From Actinomycetota bacterium (GTDB taxonomy: Bacteria > Actinomycetota > Thermoleophilia > Solirubrobacterales > 70-9), in contig JAUPTY010000004.1 in the NCBI GenBank assembly GCA_030917845.1, forward strand, positions 1-38,987: a stretch of 38,987 nt of DNA, in the 5' to 3' direction. Shown in pieces: positions 17,973 through 26,820 of the stretch. The position numbers and the translations under genes were made by a program. Numbering within the stretch: position 1 is the stretch's first letter; the number at the start of each line of letters is the position of its first letter. The notes under the pieces are model-generated. The model saw only the letters and a list, made by a program, of their open reading frames with translations. It searched no databases and was not told the DNA's origin.

Positions 17973-18059
17973 GCGGCTGTGGCGGAATTGGTAGACGCGC
18001 AAGCTTGAGGGGCTTGTGTCCGCAAGGACGTGGAGGTTCGACTCCTCTCAGCCGCACCA
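17973..18059 (+). tRNA. tRNA-Leu (anticodon GAG)
   Basis: An 87-nt class II tRNA. Acceptor stem GCGGCTG pairs with CAGCCGC; the D-arm contains AATTGGTAGACGC; the anticodon arm GCAAGC-TTGAGGG-GCTTGT places GAG at the anticodon, reading CUC/CUU leucine codons; a long variable arm (GTCCGCAAGGAC) and GGTTCGACTCC T-arm follow. The CCA end is encoded. The last 8 nt belong to the 17-bp attachment repeat of the downstream island. Confidence 0.97.
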
Positions 18060-18068
18060 TACGTTTGA
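18052..18068. repeat. Island left attachment site (attL)
   Basis: CCGCACCATACGTTTGA spans the last 8 nt of tRNA-Leu and 9 nt beyond. An identical copy is at 26804-26820. Neighbouring bases differ on both sides, so the identity block is exactly 17 bp. Confidence 0.88.
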
Positions 18069-18836
18069 CGTTAGAACCTCCACGCCTAGAAATGGGCGCG
18101 GAGGTTCTTTGTTTTCCACCCCAGTTTTCAGCAGCAGAACAGGCTGGCTCCTCAGACCATTCCTGTTGGCGTAGCCATTTGAGATCGTCGTCTGCTTGGT
18201 TGGGCTTGGCGTGGGCGTGTGGCCGGGCCTCGGGCTTGCCGTGCGGGATCTCGAGATCATGCTCGACTAGGTCGCTGAACGGATAGGTGAGTTTGACACC
18301 CGTGATTTCCTCTGCATCGACTTCGATTCGTTCGTAGATGGCTTGGTTAGGAGACGTCCGTCTTTGTCGGCCATCAAGTGGGCAGCCTGAATGTCTCCGG
18401 TGAGGTTGAGTGCGACCTGGATCGTTTCGTCGAGCTTGTCCGTTCTGACCCGGAGCTGGTCGAGCAGTCGTTCGGCTGCGGCTCGTTCTTGGTTGATTCG
18501 CTTTTGCTCTTCGATGGATGCCTCATCGCTGAGCGCATCCCTGTAATGGGGGGCCAGGAGCTACTTTTCTTCCCGGCGCAAGCGGTCAACCGTGGCACTG
18601 GCGCGACCCCGTTCCTTGCCTACGACGTCTTCAATCACGCAACATTGTTGGCGAACGTCCTCCTGGAGAGCCTCGCGCACTTTCTGCGTGAGCGTGACAC
18701 GGGCGTATTCTCGCTCCACAGCGTCCTAGATTGCCTCGGCGCGGTGATATTTCTGAGAACAGGTTCTGTCCTTGCGTCTGAGGAGATCGCACACCAATTC
18801 CACGATTCGATTGCCAGCATCATTTCCGGGGTGATC
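18060..18836 (-). pseudogene. Decayed large serine recombinase (C-terminal part only)
   Basis: Leftward translation gives a recognisable recombinase C-terminal coiled coil: KVREALQEDVRQQ, then HYRDALSDEASIEEQKRI, then TDKLDETIQVALNLTGDIQ, then (after a frameshift) IYERIEVDAEEITGVKL. This KLDETIQVAL...IYERIEVD pattern is typical of large serine recombinases. At least three lesions are visible: TAG at 18726-18728 and TAG at 18561-18563, each restorable by one base change, and a one-base deletion near 18341. The N-terminal catalytic domain is absent, cut off before the neighbouring gene. The last frame reads through the attachment repeat into the antisense of the tRNA, so the original stop has been lost or lies in the other junction. 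An apparent rightward ORF over this stretch is only its shadow. Confidence 0.82.
18073..18115 (+). terminator. Island-borne replacement terminator for tRNA-Leu
   Basis: AGAACCTCC (18073-18081) pairs with GGAGGTTCT (18100-18108), with an inner CGCC/GGCG stem, followed by TTGTTTT. It restores termination for the tRNA whose own terminator was moved to the far side of the island. Confidence 0.75.
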
Positions 18837-18907
18837 TCAGGACTGATTGTTCGAAGCATTGGAGACTAGGGCTGACATCGGCAATCACCCCCAACCGGCT
18901 CATCCGC

Positions 18908-19846
18908 TCATTTGGCTAACTCAAACATTGTCCGGACTCGCAACGGAAGCAAGTCCGGTTCCGCCGTGACGAACGCCAACAGGTCCTCTCCCTTGATTAC
19001 CTCAGTAACCAAGTCGTGACTGCCAGAGTAGTGTCCGCACGTCGCGAAGGCAAACGTGTCGGTTAGCTCATCAACTCGCGCATCGGAAAGCGCCTGCAAG
19101 TCGACCTCATCGTTGCCCGTCTTGATCTGAACGATGCCCTTGCGCCGACTATCTCGGTGGATCATGGTCCATTCGTAAGCCGGTGTATCGCGTTGGCGGG
19201 CGCGAGGGAGAGCTACATAGTCCCTCGCTAGTTGGAGCCAGACATACACGAGATCCTCGACGTCGTACGGGTCGAGATGGCTGGTGAGAACGTCGTCCTT
19301 CGTCATGTCAAGCTCGGGCAGCGGTTCGCCGTTGAGTTTTGCCCAAAGATATGGGGTGAGCATCTGAGCTGGGACGTCATGAATGCGACTGAAGCTCTGC
19401 CCAACGCCAATAAAGCGCCGGATCACACCTCCGGGGACTTCCAGGTCATTCAATGGCCGGGGCGCCCATTTGACGTCGCGTACCTGATGAACATCAACCT
19501 TCTTCGCGGCCTCTGAAATGTCGTACCGATATCCGCCCGTGATTCGGCCAAGCAGATACCGCCCGGCGGTGTCACGCGTCCACACAAAATCTCCAGCCTG
19601 AGCATCGGAACCAAAGCGCCTAACGATCTGCGCAGGAGTACGACCCCAGTCATCGTGGTTCTCGATCCAGGCGCACACGTCTTCAAGGGAGGCGCCATCA
19701 AGTAGCTCATCGATCCGCCAGCCAATCCCCACGAGCTGGTTGTCGAGGCAATGCTGAACTTGCTCCGCATGACTCACGCCATCGAGCGTTGAACGCAGCT
19801 TCGTCCGCCAAAGGGTCGGTAAGTGCTCCGCCGACGGTGGGAGCAC
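18908..19846 (-). CDS. PUA/EVE-like plus Mrr-like nuclease domain protein
   Basis: A 312-aa protein. The N-terminal half resembles the PUA/EVE-like modified-base reading fold: EQVQHCLDNQLVGIGWRID (28-46), AGDFVWTRDTAGRYLLGRITGGYRYD (84-109), VHQVRDVKWAP (119-129). The C-terminal half looks like an Mrr-type PD-(D/E)xK core: YDVEDLVYVWLQLARDYVALP (194-214), DTPAYEW with Glu225, then the strand IVQIKTG with Gln240 and Lys242. It would recognise DNA and cut it, or direct a partner. It lies 10 nt downstream of the McrB-like gene in the same orientation and so is likely co-transcribed. Domain calls are by eye; the nuclease assignment is moderately secure, the EVE assignment tentative. Confidence 0.7.
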   Translation of the reverse strand: MLPPSAEHLPTLWRTKLRSTLDGVSHAEQVQHCLDNQLVGIGWRIDELLDGASLEDVCAWIENHDDWGRTPAQIVRRFGSDAQAGDFVWTRDTAGRYLLGRITGGYRYDISEAAKKVDVHQVRDVKWAPRPLNDLEVPGGVIRRFIGVGQSFSRIHDVPAQMLTPYLWAKLNGEPLPELDMTKDDVLTSHLDPYDVEDLVYVWLQLARDYVALPRARQRDTPAYEWTMIHRDSRRKGIVQIKTGNDEVDLQALSDARVDELTDTFAFATCGHYSGSHDLVTEVIKGEDLLAFVTAEPDLLPLRVRTMFELAK

Positions 19847-19856
19847 TCAGCAGAAC

Positions 19857-21563
19857 CTAGAGAAGCGGAGCCACACTGCCATCTTGAAGGTCCATTCGAT
19901 CCACCGAGCGGGCGATTTCCTCTGAGTTCGGCAGCGACACGCACCTCTCAGCAATCCCCCGAGCCACGCCAATGTCGGTGACCTGCTCCATGAGCTTCCC
20001 GGTCACCTGCCAACCCAGTGCCTCGGGCACGTCGCCGTCCGCATAGATCAAATCTCGCAAGATGTCGACGAGCAGCCCGACTGTGAGGAAGTTTCGGCCG
20101 TCTTCGCTCTCGAACAAGTAGTCAACCAAATCAAGCAAAGTATCGCGAGCATCAGAGTCAAGGGCTTCCAAGTCCGGGACCTCGTTGATCCGAGACGCAC
20201 GAAGCGCATCCAATGCTGGCGACTCTCCCTCTCGACGTTCCAACCGTTCCCGTTCGTATTCAAGGTACTGGTCGGCCTGCTCTATGACCCCATCACGCCC
20301 ATCCTCCCGCCAAGCGTCGAAAAGGATGTTGGGCATCTCGATAATCGTGGTCCGCCGCTTTGTGGGTCGACTGATCGGTAGCCGTGTTTCGGGTTCGTCA
20401 CGAACGCTATTGCATGTGGCCAGCAAAAGAGCATCGAGGGGTAGGCGGGGTTCCGATTTATCCGCGAGTTGAACCGCACCGTCGCCCTCGACTGCGTGAA
20501 GCAACTGGCCAAGATAGCCCTCAACCTGGGCGGTGTTCCATTCTTCGAGAATGATGACCCGCGGCAAGAGCGGTTGGCTGGTGCGCAAGACGCGGGAAGT
20601 GAATTCGCTCGGCTGAAATTTACCCCCTAGATCGAGGTAGCCAAGCAGGCGTGCCGAGTCGTATTCCGGATCAACCAAGACCTGGACGGTCTCTCTTTGC
20701 TGGGGGATCTGCGCTTCGCAGGCGCTCGCAAACTCACGCGCGAAAGTCGATTTTCCGGTTCCAGGTGCGCCGACTAGAACCGCAATATCGCGGTTGAGCC
20801 AAGCCCGCACCACTCTCGCCACAAGGCCATCCGCCAGAGCAACACCAGCGTTGTTCATAGAGATCTCTATCCGCTCAACTAGTTCGCTGATTGACCCAAG
20901 GGAAGTTGGCGCTGGAGGTGGAGGCGGAGCCCCAAGAACCTGAACCAGTGCTTCCGGAGAAATAGCCGCGTCCTCCAGTCCTCCAGCCGTTTCGATCTCA
21001 TCGACTGCTTGTGAGTAGACATGCTTGAGCAAGTCATCACGATCGAGCTTCAGGTCCGAGACCGTTCGCGTAACTAGTTCCTCGACTGTCTGAACTTCCT
21101 CATTCCGGTACATCCACGCCCCAAGTGCCACCAGCGGAATCGGACCTTGAGGGAGCAGGGCAGCATCGTTGGCAATCGTTTCGGCTAGACCCACTCTTAT
21201 GGCGTAGCCGCGAGAACCTATGCCGCCCGCTTCGAAGAAAATCTGCTGCGACGTAGGTTTGGCCCGGTCCTTGCGTTGACGCTGCAGGCTGGTCTCGGCG
21301 TATCGAGCTGCCACAAAAACACCGGCACCGGGGCTGTAGTAGGGCTTTCCCTCAGGGGCTCCCGCTACCTTGTAAAAGTCCTCAAGCAGAGCCTTCTCCT
21401 GGGCCCCGCCAAAGCGAACAGCCTTTTGATTGGCGTCTTCTTGAGTCGACGCTGTCGGCACTTCTAACCGTGTCATCGCGGGTAGAGAGAACAGCAGGAG
21501 CGGGTGCTGCGATGCCAGCGCTTCCAGCGCACGTCCAAGCAGAGCTTTCGAAACGTAGGGCAT
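19857..21563 (-). CDS. McrB-like AAA+ NTPase with N-terminal recognition domain
   Basis: A 568-aa protein. Residues 260-410 are an AAA+ module of the McrB type: Walker A GAPGTGKS (265-272), Walker B VIILEEWN followed by TAQVEGYLGQLLHAVEG (336-360), which closely mirrors the McrB pattern of acidic-x-Asn then a helix, and a sensor-1 segment LLATCNS (380-386) with arginines after it. Residues 1-160 form a separate domain (GKPYYSPGAGVFVAARYAETSLQRQRK, then PLVALGAWMYRNEE) that probably reads DNA. A Pro-rich linker (211-219) joins them. In McrBC and LlaJI systems this subunit translocates DNA and activates a DUF2357/McrC nuclease. Start ATG 21563. GTP versus ATP use cannot be told. Confidence 0.82.
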   Translation of the reverse strand: MPYVSKALLGRALEALASQHPLLLFSLPAMTRLEVPTASTQEDANQKAVRFGGAQEKALLEDFYKVAGAPEGKPYYSPGAGVFVAARYAETSLQRQRKDRAKPTSQQIFFEAGGIGSRGYAIRVGLAETIANDAALLPQGPIPLVALGAWMYRNEEVQTVEELVTRTVSDLKLDRDDLLKHVYSQAVDEIETAGGLEDAAISPEALVQVLGAPPPPPAPTSLGSISELVERIEISMNNAGVALADGLVARVVRAWLNRDIAVLVGAPGTGKSTFAREFASACEAQIPQQRETVQVLVDPEYDSARLLGYLDLGGKFQPSEFTSRVLRTSQPLLPRVIILEEWNTAQVEGYLGQLLHAVEGDGAVQLADKSEPRLPLDALLLATCNSVRDEPETRLPISRPTKRRTTIIEMPNILFDAWREDGRDGVIEQADQYLEYERERLERREGESPALDALRASRINEVPDLEALDSDARDTLLDLVDYLFESEDGRNFLTVGLLVDILRDLIYADGDVPEALGWQVTGKLMEQVTDIGVARGIAERCVSLPNSEEIARSVDRMDLQDGSVAPLL

Positions 21564-21595
21564 TTACTCATCACTCCGCATACGGGAAGAGCAGA

Positions 21596-21838
21596 CTATA
21601 CCCGGGAGGTCGGAGGTCGCCCTCGAGTCAGCGGCAGTGTTTCCTCGGCCCAAATTGCGACGTCTTCTCTCTTCCAGACGGGCGTTGCGGCGAGGCGTTG
21701 GAGTGGCGGAGGGAAGTCATCTCGCGTGCTGTATGTCGTCGCCGTGCGCTTCGTAACTTCGAGCATTGCGGCGACCTCCGCGAGACCTACCAGGGCATCG
21801 GATTGCTCAGAAGTTTGGGGTTCGGCACGCCTTGACAA
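21596..21838 (-). CDS. AlpA/MerR-like HTH DNA-binding protein
   Basis: An 80-aa protein from TTG 21838 (GGAAGA just before it); it lies 32 nt upstream of the McrB-like gene. LVGLAEVAAMLEVTKRTATTYSTRDDFP, then PVWKREDVAIWAEE, is the standard MerR/AlpA/excisionase-type winged helix: HTH, a wing over FPPPLQRLA, and a Trp-containing last helix, then a basic GRPP tail. Such proteins are common before restriction or abortive-infection genes and in integrative elements, acting as regulators or excisionases. No ATG is available in frame without extending into the divergent methyltransferase, hence the TTG choice. The longer frame to 22414 is antisense noise. Confidence 0.68.
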   Translation of the reverse strand: MSRRAEPQTSEQSDALVGLAEVAAMLEVTKRTATTYSTRDDFPPPLQRLAATPVWKREDVAIWAEETLPLTRGRPPTSRV

Positions 21839-21948
21839 AATCTTCCATGCTGTGGAAAAGTTCCGTCCGACCCGTCCGCGAGACTGATCGTCGACCGCAA
21901 GGATCACATATCCCGCGGTCGGAAACATCGAACGGTCAGAAAGGTGCC
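21839..21948. promoter_or_regulatory. Divergent promoter region of the restriction-like locus
   Basis: 110 bp separate the leftward HTH/McrB-like set from the rightward methyltransferase/nuclease set, so both are probably started here and could be regulated together by the HTH protein. I see no clear paired -35/-10 element. An A/T-richer stretch around 21835-21865 is the best candidate. Confidence 0.4.
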
Positions 21949-22851
21949 GTGACCGAACCGAAGCAACCCACGCCTTACGCCGAAAGCTCATCGGGCGACT
22001 CCCCAGGATGGCGAGTTTATTGCGATGACTCTCGCGACATCTTGACGCAGCTGGAGCCGGAGTCCGTCGATTGCGTTGTGACGAGCCCGCCGTACTACTG
22101 GCAGCGCGACTACGACGTCGAGGGACAAATCGGCATGGAGCCCAGCATTCAAGGATTCGTAGACAACATTGTCTCGGTCTTTGAAGGCGTCCACCAGGTT
22201 CTGAAGCCGACCGGCGTCGTCTTTCTGAATCTCGGCGATACGTTCTATAACGCCAAAGGACGACCACATGGTCGAGACGATAAGCACCGAGCGCGAACAC
22301 TTGCTCGGACGCAACTGCGTGCCGTCGACGGGCCCGGCTTGGGCGTGCCTCGCAAGAGCTTGATTGGGATCCCTTGGCGCGTCGCACTCGCACTGGCAGG
22401 TTGGGGTTGGACACTGCGCTCAGAGATAATCTGGGTTCGCAGAACCTCTATGCCCGAGCCCACCGCTCACGACCGCCCGTGGAGACAGCATGAGCACCTT
22501 TTTCTCTTCTCTAAGGGCGTGAAATATCACTTCGATCGGTCCGGGCTTCCAGGTCAGGAAGATGTTTGGGAGATTGAACCGGAGAGACGAAGCGCTACCC
22601 GAGGCGAGCACTTCGCCCCTTATCCGGAAGCTCTCGTGAAACGTTGTCTGGAGGCTGGGTGCCCCGAGGGCGGAACCGTGCTGGATCCGTTTGCCGGCGG
22701 CGGAACTACGCTTGCTGTCGCTCGCCGCCTAGGCATGCCCTCGATCGGTGTGGACTTGAACGAGAGCTTCTGCGATGTCATCGTCCGTCGAATGGGCGAG
22801 ACCACGCCAGACATCGAACTCGACGATCAGAGTGTCGCCGCCATCGGCTGA
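21949..22851 (+). CDS. DNA methyltransferase, beta class (N4-cytosine or N6-adenine)
   Basis: A 300-aa SAM-dependent amino-methyltransferase. Motif order is beta-class: catalytic motif IV TSPPY at residues 45-49, then the target region, then the SAM-binding motif I DPFAGGGTT at 246-254 followed by GVDLNESF. QHEHLFLFSKG (180-190) is the usual strand before motif X. TSPPY is most often seen in N4-cytosine enzymes but also in N6-adenine ones. Start GTG 21949 has AAAGG 4 nt upstream; the frame is open further upstream but that part is antisense to the HTH gene. It overlaps the following nuclease gene. It probably protects host DNA from the neighbouring nuclease complex. Confidence 0.87.
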   Translation: MTEPKQPTPYAESSSGDSPGWRVYCDDSRDILTQLEPESVDCVVTSPPYYWQRDYDVEGQIGMEPSIQGFVDNIVSVFEGVHQVLKPTGVVFLNLGDTFYNAKGRPHGRDDKHRARTLARTQLRAVDGPGLGVPRKSLIGIPWRVALALAGWGWTLRSEIIWVRRTSMPEPTAHDRPWRQHEHLFLFSKGVKYHFDRSGLPGQEDVWEIEPERRSATRGEHFAPYPEALVKRCLEAGCPEGGTVLDPFAGGGTTLAVARRLGMPSIGVDLNESFCDVIVRRMGETTPDIELDDQSVAAIG

Positions 22852-24940
22852 CGCTTTCGTAGTTTCGGGGAGCACCCGTACGCCCCTGGCTAGAGATACG
22901 CCGGTGCTCGTACCCGCGGGTCCAGTCGTCCTAGATATCCGCGGAGTCCCTCACGCAAGAGCAGTTCGGCTCGACGGTCAAGCGCTTTCCGTTGCGCACG
23001 ATTCGTCTGGCCATTCGGCGACAGTAGCGCTTAGTCTCGAACGAGCCACGGGCTATCACCAGCTTGTAGTTGGCGCCGAAAGACGGTACCTCTTCGGAAC
23101 CGAAGACGCGAAACTCCGCATTGACGGGGTCGTCGAGATGCTGGCTTTCTTGCGGGAACATGCTGAGAGCCTGGGATTGGCGTGGAGCGGCACAATTCAA
23201 TTTTCTGGCAGTGACCAGGTACTCCGCGACTCGCGACTCGATGTGGCCTGGCTAGAAGCGCATGCCGCTGAGATCGAGGCCATCGCTACGTCGATAGCTA
23301 AGCGACCATTTGTGGTGAGCCGAAAGCGAGATGAACGAGCCACGAAGGGTGTCCCGGACGTTGCTGCCTCCGGGAGGCTCATCCGACGAATGCCAGAACT
23401 TATGGAGCCGCACCCACGAGGACCGGTGACGGTGGACGGTGTCTCATGGGCTCCACGCGAATTCATTCGTCAGCGCCGATTCTCGACTGCCGACACTCAG
23501 GGGAATCGAGCAGTTACGCGGCTCGTGCTCGCGACGATGGAGTTGGCACGCGCCAGCCAGGCGAACGCCCCAGCAGATACTCAAGACGACCTTTACGCGC
23601 ACGTCGATGCGATGGCTCGCTCGATTCGACTCCAGCCGTTCGCCGCTATTCGGCGAAACCGGGGCCACCTTCGCATCGGCACACGAGCCTCGCTAGAGGA
23701 ACGAACCGATAGTCGATATAGACGAGCCCGAGAACTGCTAGTTGAGCTACTACGAGAGCGCCACTGGGATCCACGCAATCAGGTGAGCGAAGAATGGGCG
23801 TTCGCCGCTTTGGCCGATCAGGTGTATCAGGCTTTTTCGGCGATCGCCATTGCACAAGCCTTTAAGCTCCACCCGGTAGCGCAACTAGGCACTACTGGGC
23901 CGCACTTTTCCAGCGATGAGTTCCAAATGTGGGTTGACGCAACGCCGCCCTCCGACGTGCTCCGGAACTGGCGGGACGACTCGTCGACCCCTACGTCATT
24001 GAGGCCCGACATCACGATCTTGCGCAAGTCGGACGGTCAGATCGCGATTGCGGATGCCAAATACCGGGCAGCTGGCGACCGGGCTTCCCGTGACTCCCTC
24101 TCTGAGGTTCAGCTCTATCTTCAGTCGTACGGGTGCCTCGAGGTAACCGTGGTCTTTCCGCCGACAGCAACGCCCTGGCAAACTCACCGGGTTACGAACG
24201 ACCATTTCGGAATTACGGAGCTTCCCCTCCGACCCTCTGCTGAGCTAGCTGGGTACCTACGAGACACGGTTCGGCCCGCGATCGAGCAATCGTTTCACAA
24301 CCCGCTGCCTATCTCGAAGGTGGCGATTGCCGAACAGCGCGACGAGGTCCGAGCCACTGCCGTCCAAGCTGCCGCCGTCAGGACACTTGTTGCTGACGGG
24401 GAAGTTGTCCGATTGACGCAACCAATGGCGATGAATGCCGCGGAAAACGGTCTTCGTCGTCAGCTAGACGCCGTGTGGGAAACGCTTGACGAGGACGTTC
24501 AAAAGATGTTGATCACGGCAGAGTACTTCGGCGATCAAGTTCCGGAAGGTTTCGACCACTCAGGACCGGTTCTCGGACTTTTTGCGGCCTGCGAACGGCT
24601 GGTTCGGGACCGCCTATTCGGACCAGCCTCCAGCCTGATGGGCGGAGAGTTCGATCGCGTCACGTTTGGTGAAGCGGGTCGAACTCTCAAGCGCTTGCCA
24701 ATCTGGAGAAGCGGATCCGAGAAACGACTGCGGGAGTGGGCCGACCAACAGCAAGGCACCGATGTTTCCGGACTCGGCCGCTGTGGAAAAGCAATGCTCA
24801 AAGTAAACAAGTGGCGAATCGCTGCGGCTCATTCCGTACTGGTAGATAAAGCTACTTGGGACAACACGCACACCATCGTGCTCGACAAAGAGCACGGCCT
24901 CCTAGTTACGCTCTGCGCAGCATTACCGAATCCCTCCTGA
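22775..24940 (+). CDS. DUF2357/McrC-like PD-(D/E)xK nuclease
   Basis: A 721-aa protein. The N-terminal 300 residues are beta-rich then helical (LRIDGVVEMLAFLREHA, RPFVVSRKRDERATKG), as in DUF2357 proteins. The nuclease core is clear: LRPDITILRKSDGQIAIADAKYRA at 409-432 gives Asp412, Asp427 and Lys429, followed by SEVQLYLQSYG (443-453), the helix typical of McrC-type enzymes. A further C-terminal helical domain (about 530-720) has no family I can name. With the McrB-like ATPase across the divergent promoter it would form the cleaving complex. The first possible start (ATG 22775) overlaps the methyltransferase by 77 nt; GTG 22832 (20-nt overlap) is a good alternative. Confidence 0.8.
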   Translation: MSSSVEWARPRQTSNSTIRVSPPSADAFVVSGSTRTPLARDTPVLVPAGPVVLDIRGVPHARAVRLDGQALSVAHDSSGHSATVALSLERATGYHQLVVGAERRYLFGTEDAKLRIDGVVEMLAFLREHAESLGLAWSGTIQFSGSDQVLRDSRLDVAWLEAHAAEIEAIATSIAKRPFVVSRKRDERATKGVPDVAASGRLIRRMPELMEPHPRGPVTVDGVSWAPREFIRQRRFSTADTQGNRAVTRLVLATMELARASQANAPADTQDDLYAHVDAMARSIRLQPFAAIRRNRGHLRIGTRASLEERTDSRYRRARELLVELLRERHWDPRNQVSEEWAFAALADQVYQAFSAIAIAQAFKLHPVAQLGTTGPHFSSDEFQMWVDATPPSDVLRNWRDDSSTPTSLRPDITILRKSDGQIAIADAKYRAAGDRASRDSLSEVQLYLQSYGCLEVTVVFPPTATPWQTHRVTNDHFGITELPLRPSAELAGYLRDTVRPAIEQSFHNPLPISKVAIAEQRDEVRATAVQAAAVRTLVADGEVVRLTQPMAMNAAENGLRRQLDAVWETLDEDVQKMLITAEYFGDQVPEGFDHSGPVLGLFAACERLVRDRLFGPASSLMGGEFDRVTFGEAGRTLKRLPIWRSGSEKRLREWADQQQGTDVSGLGRCGKAMLKVNKWRIAAAHSVLVDKATWDNTHTIVLDKEHGLLVTLCAALPNPS

Positions 24941-24962
24941 TGCCCTCGGTATCTGGACGTCT

Positions 24963-25403
24963 CTAAACAGACACGAACCAAGGGGGAAGCACCATCGGCT
25001 CTGCCTCGAGATCTTCGCTCAGGATGACGGATTTCCAGTGAACTCCGGCCGCTTCTAATGGAGCGTAGACCAGCGGGACAGGAGAACAGGGGTCATACTG
25101 ACGGCGGGTTAGGTCCAGGAGAATCGTCTCTCGGAGCAAGACCACCATGTGCTCCGCTTCGTCCCTTATCCCAGCCCCAGGTCGCTCTATCGCGACTGGA
25201 CTACGATGGCCTACTAGCCAAACGAGCCTGGCATCATCAAGTGTTGGAGTTCCGGTTTCCGGGCGAACGAGATCTTGACTGACGATTCGGCACTGATTTG
25301 CGACGCGTTCCGGATGCGACAGGACGCCTTCAAATCGATGTAGCGCGTCGTTGACCACCAAGACTTCATCCGCCGTAAGTGATTTCTCCCATTTGGGGCT
25401 CAT
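24963..25403 (-). CDS. Unknown protein with possible Cys-His-Asp (papain/transglutaminase-like) triad
   Basis: A 146-aa protein from ATG 25403. I do not recognise it with certainty. Cys38 (NQCRIVS), His85 in DEAEHMVVLLRE and Asp97 in LLDLTRRQYDP are spaced as in transglutaminase/papain-like folds, where a His-strand-Asp pair (typically H...V.L...DLT..QFDP) is a recognisable pattern. The following CSPVPLVY supports that reading. It is convergent with the DUF2357 gene (22-nt gap) and lies 30 nt downstream of another small leftward gene, likely its operon partner. Toxin, peptidase or amidase roles are all conceivable; catalytic activity is inference. Confidence 0.55.
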   Translation of the reverse strand: MSPKWEKSLTADEVLVVNDALHRFEGVLSHPERVANQCRIVSQDLVRPETGTPTLDDARLVWLVGHRSPVAIERPGAGIRDEAEHMVVLLRETILLDLTRRQYDPCSPVPLVYAPLEAAGVHWKSVILSEDLEAEPMVLPPWFVSV

Positions 25404-25433
25404 CAAGCCCTGCGGATCAGAGAGCGATTGATT

Positions 25434-25637
25434 TCACTCATCTAACAGGTCGATTTGGTTCTGGGTTACTTCGATCACCCTGCCTGCGTCAAGCTGCAGT
25501 TCGATGATGCCCGGCTGCACTTGAGACCCACGGACTTTGCGACCTTCAACGATTCGCTTGACAGTGCCAGCTCCCAAGTCCCCGTCTTCCGCTCGGACGC
25601 GAACGCGAGCCCCCTCCCTAATCTCGTTCGAACTCAT
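25434..25637 (-). CDS. Small beta-rich protein, function unknown
   Basis: A 67-aa protein from ATG 25637. The sequence IREGARVRVRAEDGDLGAGTVKRI followed by GIIELQLDAGRVIEVTQNQIDLL reads as an SH3/KOW-like small barrel: alternating hydrophobics, glycine turns and a closing strand. It has an acidic tail. It precedes the possible Cys-His-Asp protein by 30 nt in the same direction, so the two could be an antitoxin/toxin or partner pair. A longer frame upstream (to 25838) would overlap the divergent HEPN gene and its -10, so it is rejected. Confidence 0.55.
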   Translation of the reverse strand: MSSNEIREGARVRVRAEDGDLGAGTVKRIVEGRKVRGSQVQPGIIELQLDAGRVIEVTQNQIDLLDE

Positions 25638-25755
25638 AAACCGCACGATACTCGCGGGAGCTTCTGCGATCACGCTAAGCACCGAAAGATCGACTTTCAG
25701 GGCGCTGAAGCTCAATGTCCGTTTTCCGTCGAGAGTCGAAGCTAGGCTAGCTCTC

Positions 25756-26406
25756 ATGGCAACCGCCCAGATTGCTCCACTGGAGAACCGATTCGTTGAC
25801 ACCCTAACCCGATCGGAAGCGTTGGTCACTGATATCAAAGGTCTGGTGAAGCCTCCCCCCGCGGGTCCGGGACACCCTGGCCTCCCGCAGCTGCAACTGA
25901 ATCTTGTTTACGAATTGGCCTTTATTCGTTGCATCCTCGCGTGGGTGGATTTCCTGTTCACGAGCATGTGCGCTTACCTGACCGGAGCCAAGGGAACGAG
26001 TGGCAGAGCAGTTAAATCTAAGGCCAGAGTCCAAACCCTTGAGGCGGCCGAGGCCGTTCTAGTGGGGGGACAACGCTTCCTTTCCTGGACCGATTCGGGA
26101 GTAGTTCGCAAACGCGCACAGATATGGTTCGACGGAGGGGGCCCCTACGTCGCTGCACTGAGCGCATTTGCGTCGTACGGCGAGTTAAGGACGGTACGAA
26201 ACAGAATTGTTCACAAATCGAGGAGCGCCGAAAAGTCGTTCTCAACCCTCCGCGGCAGCAAGTATGGAACCTCAAAAGCTGCGAAGAAGCAGCAGCATGG
26301 AATGGGACCAGGCGCCTTTCTTGCGGCGAAGGACGGAGCGGGCACACGGTTCAACGCATACGTTCAAGACATGAAGTCCGCAGCAAGGACGATTGCGGAG
26401 GCCTAG
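25756..26406 (+). CDS. HEPN-motif protein
   Basis: A 216-aa helical protein with a HEPN-type RNase signature RNRIVH (Arg148-His153), matching R-N-x-x-x-H, preceded by a helix ending SYGELRTV and by a first helix VYELAFIRCILAWVDFLF (51-68), as in the HEPN four-helix bundle. The C-terminus is basic (KAAKKQQH). HEPN proteins of defence islands cut RNA or carry AMP as part of HEPN-MNT pairs; no nucleotidyltransferase gene is seen next to it. TAGGCT at 25743-25748 lies 7 nt before the ATG and no Shine-Dalgarno is visible, so the mRNA is probably leaderless. It is divergent from the small leftward pair. Confidence 0.65.
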   Translation: MATAQIAPLENRFVDTLTRSEALVTDIKGLVKPPPAGPGHPGLPQLQLNLVYELAFIRCILAWVDFLFTSMCAYLTGAKGTSGRAVKSKARVQTLEAAEAVLVGGQRFLSWTDSGVVRKRAQIWFDGGGPYVAALSAFASYGELRTVRNRIVHKSRSAEKSFSTLRGSKYGTSKAAKKQQHGMGPGAFLAAKDGAGTRFNAYVQDMKSAARTIAEA

Positions 26407-26454
26407 AACCTCGCATCCACAGAACTCTTGATTTGACCCAGGCGGTCAATTCGT

Positions 26455-26691
26455 CTATCGGTCCGTGACGCCCATTAGAGCTAGTCGGAAAAGGTCAGAC
26501 TCAACGCGTTCGAAAATAAGCCTCTGACCGCGGCACCCCGTTGACAAGCAGTTCTCAACCGTGTTACGGGACGACGGCATTCCCAGGCGGTTCGACCCAA
26601 GCTCGACGATTTGCTTTGCCCGAAGTGATTGATCGGAATCCCGCAGGACCGCGATCACCGTTTTCTTGACCTCTCCGCTACGTGGTTGCAT
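26455..26691 (-). CDS. Small winged-helix-like protein
   Basis: A 78-aa basic protein. SGEVKKTVIAVLRDSDQSLRAKQIVELG, then SRNTVENCLS, then a wing ending FERVESDLFRLA, resembles the small winged-helix proteins that accompany restriction or methyltransferase genes (reading of the type: helix, recognition helix beginning S..TV...LS, then a beta-hairpin ending in FERV..G.YRL). It is the last gene before the right attachment site and points inward. Its function may be transcriptional control of the island or specificity; this is inference. Confidence 0.6.
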   Translation of the reverse strand: MQPRSGEVKKTVIAVLRDSDQSLRAKQIVELGSNRLGMPSSRNTVENCLSTGCRGQRLIFERVESDLFRLALMGVTDR

Positions 26692-26803
26692 AAAGGAGGG
26701 AGTAGTGGGGGGAACGCTTGGCCTCAGTCAGTAGCCTGCGCTGCAATCGAACTAGGCGCACCAGATCTTTCTGGATCTCGGGTTTCGAGAGTGCTCCTAT
26801 TAC

Positions 26804-26820
26804 CCGCACCATACGTTTGA
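26804..26820. repeat. Island right attachment site (attR)
   Basis: CCGCACCATACGTTTGA is identical to the copy at the tRNA-Leu 3' end. After excision it would rebuild the tRNA end and join it to the native terminator starting 6 nt downstream. Confidence 0.88.

Follow-up and report, generated by a model that had tools for sequence, protein, structure and literature searches.

The window, meaning the whole 38,987-nucleotide stretch of Actinomycetota DNA that was analysed, carries a real and mobile restriction-modification system that resembles LlaJI and PcaRCI and belongs to a scarcely described branch. This conclusion, which bears out the LlaJI-like system proposed in the initial annotation, is well supported by the parts of the system, by a gene set that recurs elsewhere, and by the precedents of LlaJI (PMC1459862) and PcaRCI (PMC8989522). 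The most valuable lead is an N-terminal domain common to McrBC-like and Septu effectors. The picture of five genes given initially stood, but the object is larger, and the surrounding island (18042–26820), a HEPN-like tail on one nuclease and the N-terminal domain shared with Septu had been missed.

The island and its genes

The five genes lie within a mobile 8.75-kb island at a tRNA-Leu(GAG) gene (17973–18059, forward strand; ARAGORN), the integration target. An attL-like repeat at the 3′ end of the tRNA gene (18042–18068, forward strand) is directly repeated at 26794–26820 (forward strand), where the attR-like copy and the comparison with empty sites place the right end of the island; the two copies share 17 identical bp (CCGCACCATACGTTTGA), with a G+C content of ~0.58 between them compared to ~0.63 outside. 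Empty sites were found in two genomes of the same genus, in which the LexA gene, the same tRNA-Leu, and the right-flank gene occur without the island (505 and 553 bp from LexA to the right-flank gene). A reverse-strand stretch (18090–18880) with stops and a frame change is, in a three-frame reading, a broken integrase, probably the degraded C-terminus of a serine recombinase; since the remnant had no match when used as a query against plasmids, the serine-recombinase identity is a motif-based reading. The island also encodes an uncharacterised 215-aa protein (25759–26406, forward strand), which has an RNRIVH motif reminiscent of HEPN and no match in Pfam, NCBIfam, or PADLOC, and three further small reverse-strand ORFs (24963–25406, 25434–25838, and 26455–26691) with no confident family match in the same three collections.

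At or very close to the positions first assigned to them, all five ORFs are open and intact and retain their catalytic residues. The order is P0001, P0002, and a helix-turn-helix (HTH) gene, all read leftward, followed by a methyltransferase and P0005, both read rightward. Gaps of 10 bp (P0001/P0002) and 32 bp (P0002/HTH) separate the leftward genes, a divergent region of 110 bp lies between the HTH gene and the methyltransferase, and the methyltransferase and P0005 overlap by 20 bp or 77 bp, depending on whether P0005 starts at GTG 22832 or ATG 22775. The divergent region had no consensus promoter-like site, a weak test for this organism, and promoter and terminator scans fell below the shuffle expectation and carried no information. 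This gene order was not found among the related loci; in actinobacterial relatives the HTH gene is divergent from a methyltransferase and McrB gene read in one direction, followed by the nuclease in either orientation, while in several proteobacterial relatives the methyltransferase and nuclease are read in one direction and are followed by McrB in the opposite one.

The small HTH regulator P0003 (21596–21838, reverse strand), divergent from the methyltransferase, has a weak HTH match by itself (0.093), and the initial call is upheld by 10 homologues at the same position with 13 invariant residues common to them. In most of the proteobacterial loci examined that pair an N-domain-McrB with a nuclease (L033, L055–L066, L127), the methyltransferase itself carries a fused HTH-like stretch at its N-terminus, which hints that the HTH protein and the methyltransferase work together, perhaps as an autoregulator.

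P0004 (21949–22851, forward strand) was correctly recognised as a beta-class methyltransferase (PF01555, E = 3.5e-38), with SPPY placed ahead of DPFAGGGTT in the beta-class motif order, and is an amino-methyltransferase (N4-cytosine or N6-adenine). It is ~64–65% identical to a plasmid protein of Mycobacterium paragordonae, the locus of which has the order HTH, methyltransferase, AAA, and nuclease, and falls in the methyltransferase tree within a clade of actinobacterial loci of the same N-domain-McrB type (support 100/99). A sister in the tree, ~76–78% identical to P0004, occurs on an 87-kb viral contig (L125, 7980–8900) with no motor or nuclease in the stretch examined; this orphan viral methyltransferase is perhaps a phage counter-defence. 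Conserved methyltransferases of the same clade, possibly orphans as well, were also observed at five Nannocystis loci (L054, L061, L063, L064, and L069) with no module partner recognised nearby.

P0002 (19857–21563, reverse strand) is a McrB-type AAA+ motor with its own N-terminal domain, as had been proposed. It matches AAA_5 (1.1e-7) and contains the Walker A and B motifs, the latter with E341, and its family profile matches McrB of E. coli (6hz4, 5.8e-23) and of T. gammatolerans (7.5e-20); full-length relatives exist. The motif N385-S-V-R-D has the NxxxD form, shared by close kin (some with E in place of D), whereas tested McrB GTPases carry NxxD; on these residues, GTP dependence of P0002 cannot be assumed. 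A small methyltransferase-associated NxxxD clade of McrB was reported without characterisation by Bell et al. 2024 (PMC11090510), who deferred methyltransferase-linked McrB branches to later work. By its parts, the module appears to belong to this little-studied branch, and the earlier description of the system as undescribed was too strong. Three McrB-like AAA genes within ~6 kb were noted in one genome of the phylum (L014, L026, L027).

P0005 (forward strand, to 24940) likely starts, judging from its homologues, at GTG 22832 rather than at ATG 22775, from which the ORF was listed. Its assignment as a DUF2357/McrC-type PD-DxK nuclease, made initially, holds at the family level: P0005 alone gives only a weak match (McrBC PF10117, 0.014), and among the 19 family members McrBC was matched by seven and DUF2357 by six (best, 4e-5), with RPD...DAK conserved and D427 and K429 as nuclease residues. 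The protein extends ~200 residues beyond the nuclease, and this C-terminal tail (24407–24937, forward strand) contains an RxxxxH motif, RIAAAH, in which R137 and H142 (alignment numbering) are invariant in six proteins. As RxxxxH is described as typical of HEPN RNases in Bell et al. 2024 (PMC11090510), a HEPN-like role of the tail is plausible given the motif and its conservation; against PDB sequences, the tail profile returned only annexin-type noise. Tails of the P0005 type are conserved in nucleases of M. paragordonae, Modestobacter, Nonomuraea lactucae, and Arthrobacter-group plasmids. These tailed relatives are all of a PD...DPKLR subclass, whereas other nucleases of the DAK subclass end past the nuclease without a tail, so that P0005 looks like a chimera of a DAK-class nuclease and a tail otherwise seen only in the DPKLR subclass. 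In the Arthrobacter-group plasmids (L038, L039), an HTH gene is accompanied by two large methyltransferases, a short AAA protein, a DPKLR nuclease bearing the HEPN-like tail, and a further, separate protein of 264 aa. The last of these may act as the specificity subunit, an arrangement known from three-part BsuMI-like cassettes.

Recurrence of the core and its N-terminal domain

As single queries, P0002 and P0005 recovered nothing from the genome or viral collections and P0005 nothing from phage records, and no full-length relatives of either were found in 396 genomes of the phylum. The effective probe was an alignment of the methyltransferase, which yielded 80 loci from genomes together with 62 viral contigs. 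The 98 loci analysed, 97 with a clear methyltransferase, included 22 in which an N-domain-McrB occurs with a nuclease (type i; nuclease in 22/22), 32 in which the N-domain is fused to an ABC-type ATPase (type ii), 21 with a McrB in which an N-domain match was undetected (type iii; a classic McrC in the one locus scanned, L035), and 22 in which no partner was recognised (type iv). Methyltransferase, McrB, and nuclease are thus found together in 22 loci besides the window, 11 of which also have the P0003-type HTH gene, and, judged by gene content, the HTH protein, amino-methyltransferase, McrB-type AAA+ protein, and DUF2357/McrC-type nuclease are a recurrent four-gene module. A search of gene neighbourhoods had been suggested at the outset as a check on the five-gene set; the four-gene core recurred, but the set of five was not found among the 98 related loci. 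The absence of co-occurrence elsewhere, which had been named at the outset as grounds for refutation, thus applies to the five-gene set and not to the core of four.

The N-terminal domain of P0002 (residues 1–225; 20889–21563, reverse strand), a predicted target-recognition domain, was modelled by AlphaFold with high confidence (pLDDT 93.5, pTM 0.87), and the model had no fold match at E ≤ 0.001 in the PDB or among viral proteins. The PADLOC PtuA1 model PDLC00270 covers the domain. In the 32 type-ii loci (L071–L124, e.g., L097, 7827–11323), the N-domain is fused to the ABC-type Septu PtuA ATPase beside a methyltransferase of the same clade, and a PtuB-like gene is present in 29 of them, usually overlapping the PtuA gene. 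Three type-ii proteins match PDLC00270 over almost the whole length (2e-195 to 2.6e-236), and PtuB1 follows in each case. From this arrangement, the Septu of type-ii loci looks like a restriction-modification system. Distances among N-domains were correlated to those among methyltransferases (0.77 over all 54; r = 0.89 within type i, permutation maximum 0.20), but, because motor-domain distances correlate too (0.80), this correlation cannot separate co-recognition from co-inheritance.

In the model and in its distribution, the N-domain looks like a portable target-recognition module, a role with good precedent in that the McrB-like subunit of LlaJI alone sets specificity. Tentatively, and with somewhat less than even confidence, the domain may be an undescribed fold that reads, as a portable unit, the site which methyltransferases of this clade write, and that has been mounted on two unrelated machines, McrB/DUF2357 ring nucleases and Septu PtuA/PtuB. 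If true, a whole set of Septu systems would be restriction-modification systems with DNA methylation as the rule for self and non-self. To our knowledge, the trigger of Septu is not settled; a shared N-domain beside a shared methyltransferase bears on that trigger and on how methyltransferase-linked relatives of McrBC discriminate self from foreign DNA. A literature search for methyltransferase-linked Septu, incomplete in coverage and hence no proof of novelty, found nothing pertinent.

Relation to known systems and proposed mechanism

The window has the features of the LlaJI/PcaRCI type: an adjacent methyltransferase, a McrB-type AAA+ protein with its own N-terminal domain, and a DUF2357/McrC-type PD-(D/E)xK partner. 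The cytosine-C5 methyltransferase of LlaJI and PcaRCI is absent and a beta-class SPPY amino-methyltransferase is present instead, a difference that sets the window apart from the prototypes and is not a requirement of the class. PcaRCI of Pectobacterium, which comprises a methyltransferase, an AAA protein, and a DUF2357 protein and restricts unmethylated DNA (PMC8989522), is like the window in its mobility, its single methyltransferase, and a bipartite nuclease made up of an AAA+ McrB-like protein and a terminally extended DUF2357 protein; it differs in that its methyltransferase is Dcm-like and cytosine-C5-specific, whereas the window has the amino-methyltransferase, the HTH gene, the HEPN-like tail, and P0001. 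In LlaJI of Lactococcus, the McrB-like R1 is the sole specificity subunit (PMC1459862), and LlaJI and the window have in common a McrB-like subunit with a unique N-terminal half, a PD-(D/E)xK partner, and a linked methyltransferase. In LlaJI, however, the four genes all point the same way and there are two 5mC methyltransferases, compared to one amino-methyltransferase and a divergent order here. The likeness to the NxxxD clade of Bell et al. 2024 (PMC11090510) is one of motif and methyltransferase association; in the passages naming it, that clade appears without the N-domain, HTH, nuclease tails, or a link to Septu.

Membership in several other systems was considered and rejected. Septu (PtuA1 PDLC00270/PtuB1 PDLC00348) shares with the window the N-domain and the methyltransferase clade but uses an ABC-type ATPase motor and an HNH nuclease in place of the AAA_5 motor and PD-DxK nuclease; ABC-type PtuA and HNH PtuB are absent from the window, where the PtuA1 match is limited to the N-domain. 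P0002 carries NxxxD in place of the NxxD GTPase signature of McrBC (Type IV), and a methyltransferase is adjacent; CoCoNuT, which is marked by NxD and by McrB/McrC fusions with long coiled coils, was rejected on the same motif (NxxxD, not NxD). MADS was considered on account of matches to mad1 (7.9e-5), mad8 (6.7e-5), and mad2 (4.6e-12), all of which are to single domains, with no multi-gene mad set.

A mobile LlaJI/PcaRCI-like restriction-modification system, with P0001 separately acquired, is judged the probable explanation from sequence and by analogy with these precedents. The amino-methyltransferase P0004 would mark one sequence motif in host DNA, and the N-domain of P0002 would recognise the same motif when unmarked, as suggested by LlaJI and by the linkage to the methyltransferase clade. 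By homology to McrBC, the AAA+ part of P0002 would form a ring that hydrolyses ATP or GTP and translocates along DNA, and the DUF2357 nuclease of P0005 would dock on this ring and cut. The position of the HTH gene is consistent with control of expression from the 110-bp divergent region, such that marking would precede cutting. The HEPN-like tail of P0005 may add an RNase or assembly function, and P0001, acquired separately, would be a probably modification-dependent nuclease that shares the transcription unit. The window adds an island-borne example in which the DUF2357 nuclease bears a HEPN-like tail and a PDC-S02 nuclease belongs to the same apparent transcription unit. It offers a natural context for the question of cooperation between DNA restriction, cleavage of RNA, and cutting that depends on modification.

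The fifth gene and alternative explanations

P0001 (18908–19846, reverse strand) matches the PADLOC candidate PDC-S02 (PDLC04816, 6.3e-57) over residues 12–311, nearly its full length, and other members of this family are found solitary. The initial annotation combined a PUA/EVE-like half with an Mrr-like core. The core stood: conserved E197, E224, Q239/240, and K241/242 in the C-terminal half form an E...QxK pattern that fits an Mrr-like PD-(D/E)xK core, with profile comparison to Mrr giving P = 0.0029 at full length (in an alignment including some wrong-frame sequences) and a non-significant P = 0.13 for the isolated C-terminal half. The PUA/EVE half is supported only indirectly; because the score against EVE itself is weak (P = 0.027, hhalign) and the match to the N-terminal domain of an Mrr_cat protein is better (P = 8e-6, hhalign), that label stays putative for what may be a beta-barrel reader. 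The AlphaFold model of P0001, with three sequences as input, was too poor for a fold search (pLDDT 46.7).

The initial annotation had further proposed two nucleases with possibly opposite rules. In such an integrated system, P0001 would cut modified and P0005 unmodified DNA, and a phage escaping one rule would meet the other. The two nucleases do share one island, P0001 lies on the same strand 10 bp past the McrB gene, and, with its Mrr-like core, P0001 counts as a candidate defence protein (PDC-S02). No homologue of P0001 was found in any of the 98 related loci, however (its profile strongly recovers P0001 and L003, both of which were in the profile), its relatives are solitary and occur in unrelated neighbourhoods without the module, and a modification-dependent P0001 would have to ignore the mark of the neighbouring methyltransferase. 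As a system, the proposal found no support and is unlikely: given the 98 loci and the neighbourhoods of its relatives, P0001 is most readily understood as an addition to the core, found attached only here, and a five-gene, two-nuclease system is not conserved. Given its tight spacing, P0001 may still be co-expressed with the core and divide the work with it.

Still less probable is a modification-dependent (Type IV) McrBC with an incidental methyltransferase, which would fit the McrB-like motor and McrC-like nuclease; the methyltransferase clade adjoins McrB in 22 loci with the N-domain and in 21 others, and both of the tested methyltransferase-linked systems, PcaRCI and LlaJI, cut unmethylated DNA. 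Just as little weight is given to a decayed or silent island in which the system is a relic, since the five intact reading frames with their catalytic residues stand against the broken integrase and the lack of a consensus promoter-like sequence between the divergent genes, the latter a weak test for this organism. Within the favoured explanation, a restriction-modification core with P0001 separately acquired, the chances are about even that P0001 lacks any functional connection to the module and travels as a passenger on an island that stacks defence genes; this variant concerns P0001 only. Its tight, operon-like spacing argues otherwise, but PDC-S02 is a single-gene family that occurs alone, and a further S02 N-half is present elsewhere in the same genome. 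This second match (L011, contig 131) contains an in-frame TGA and is possibly a broken relative of P0001.
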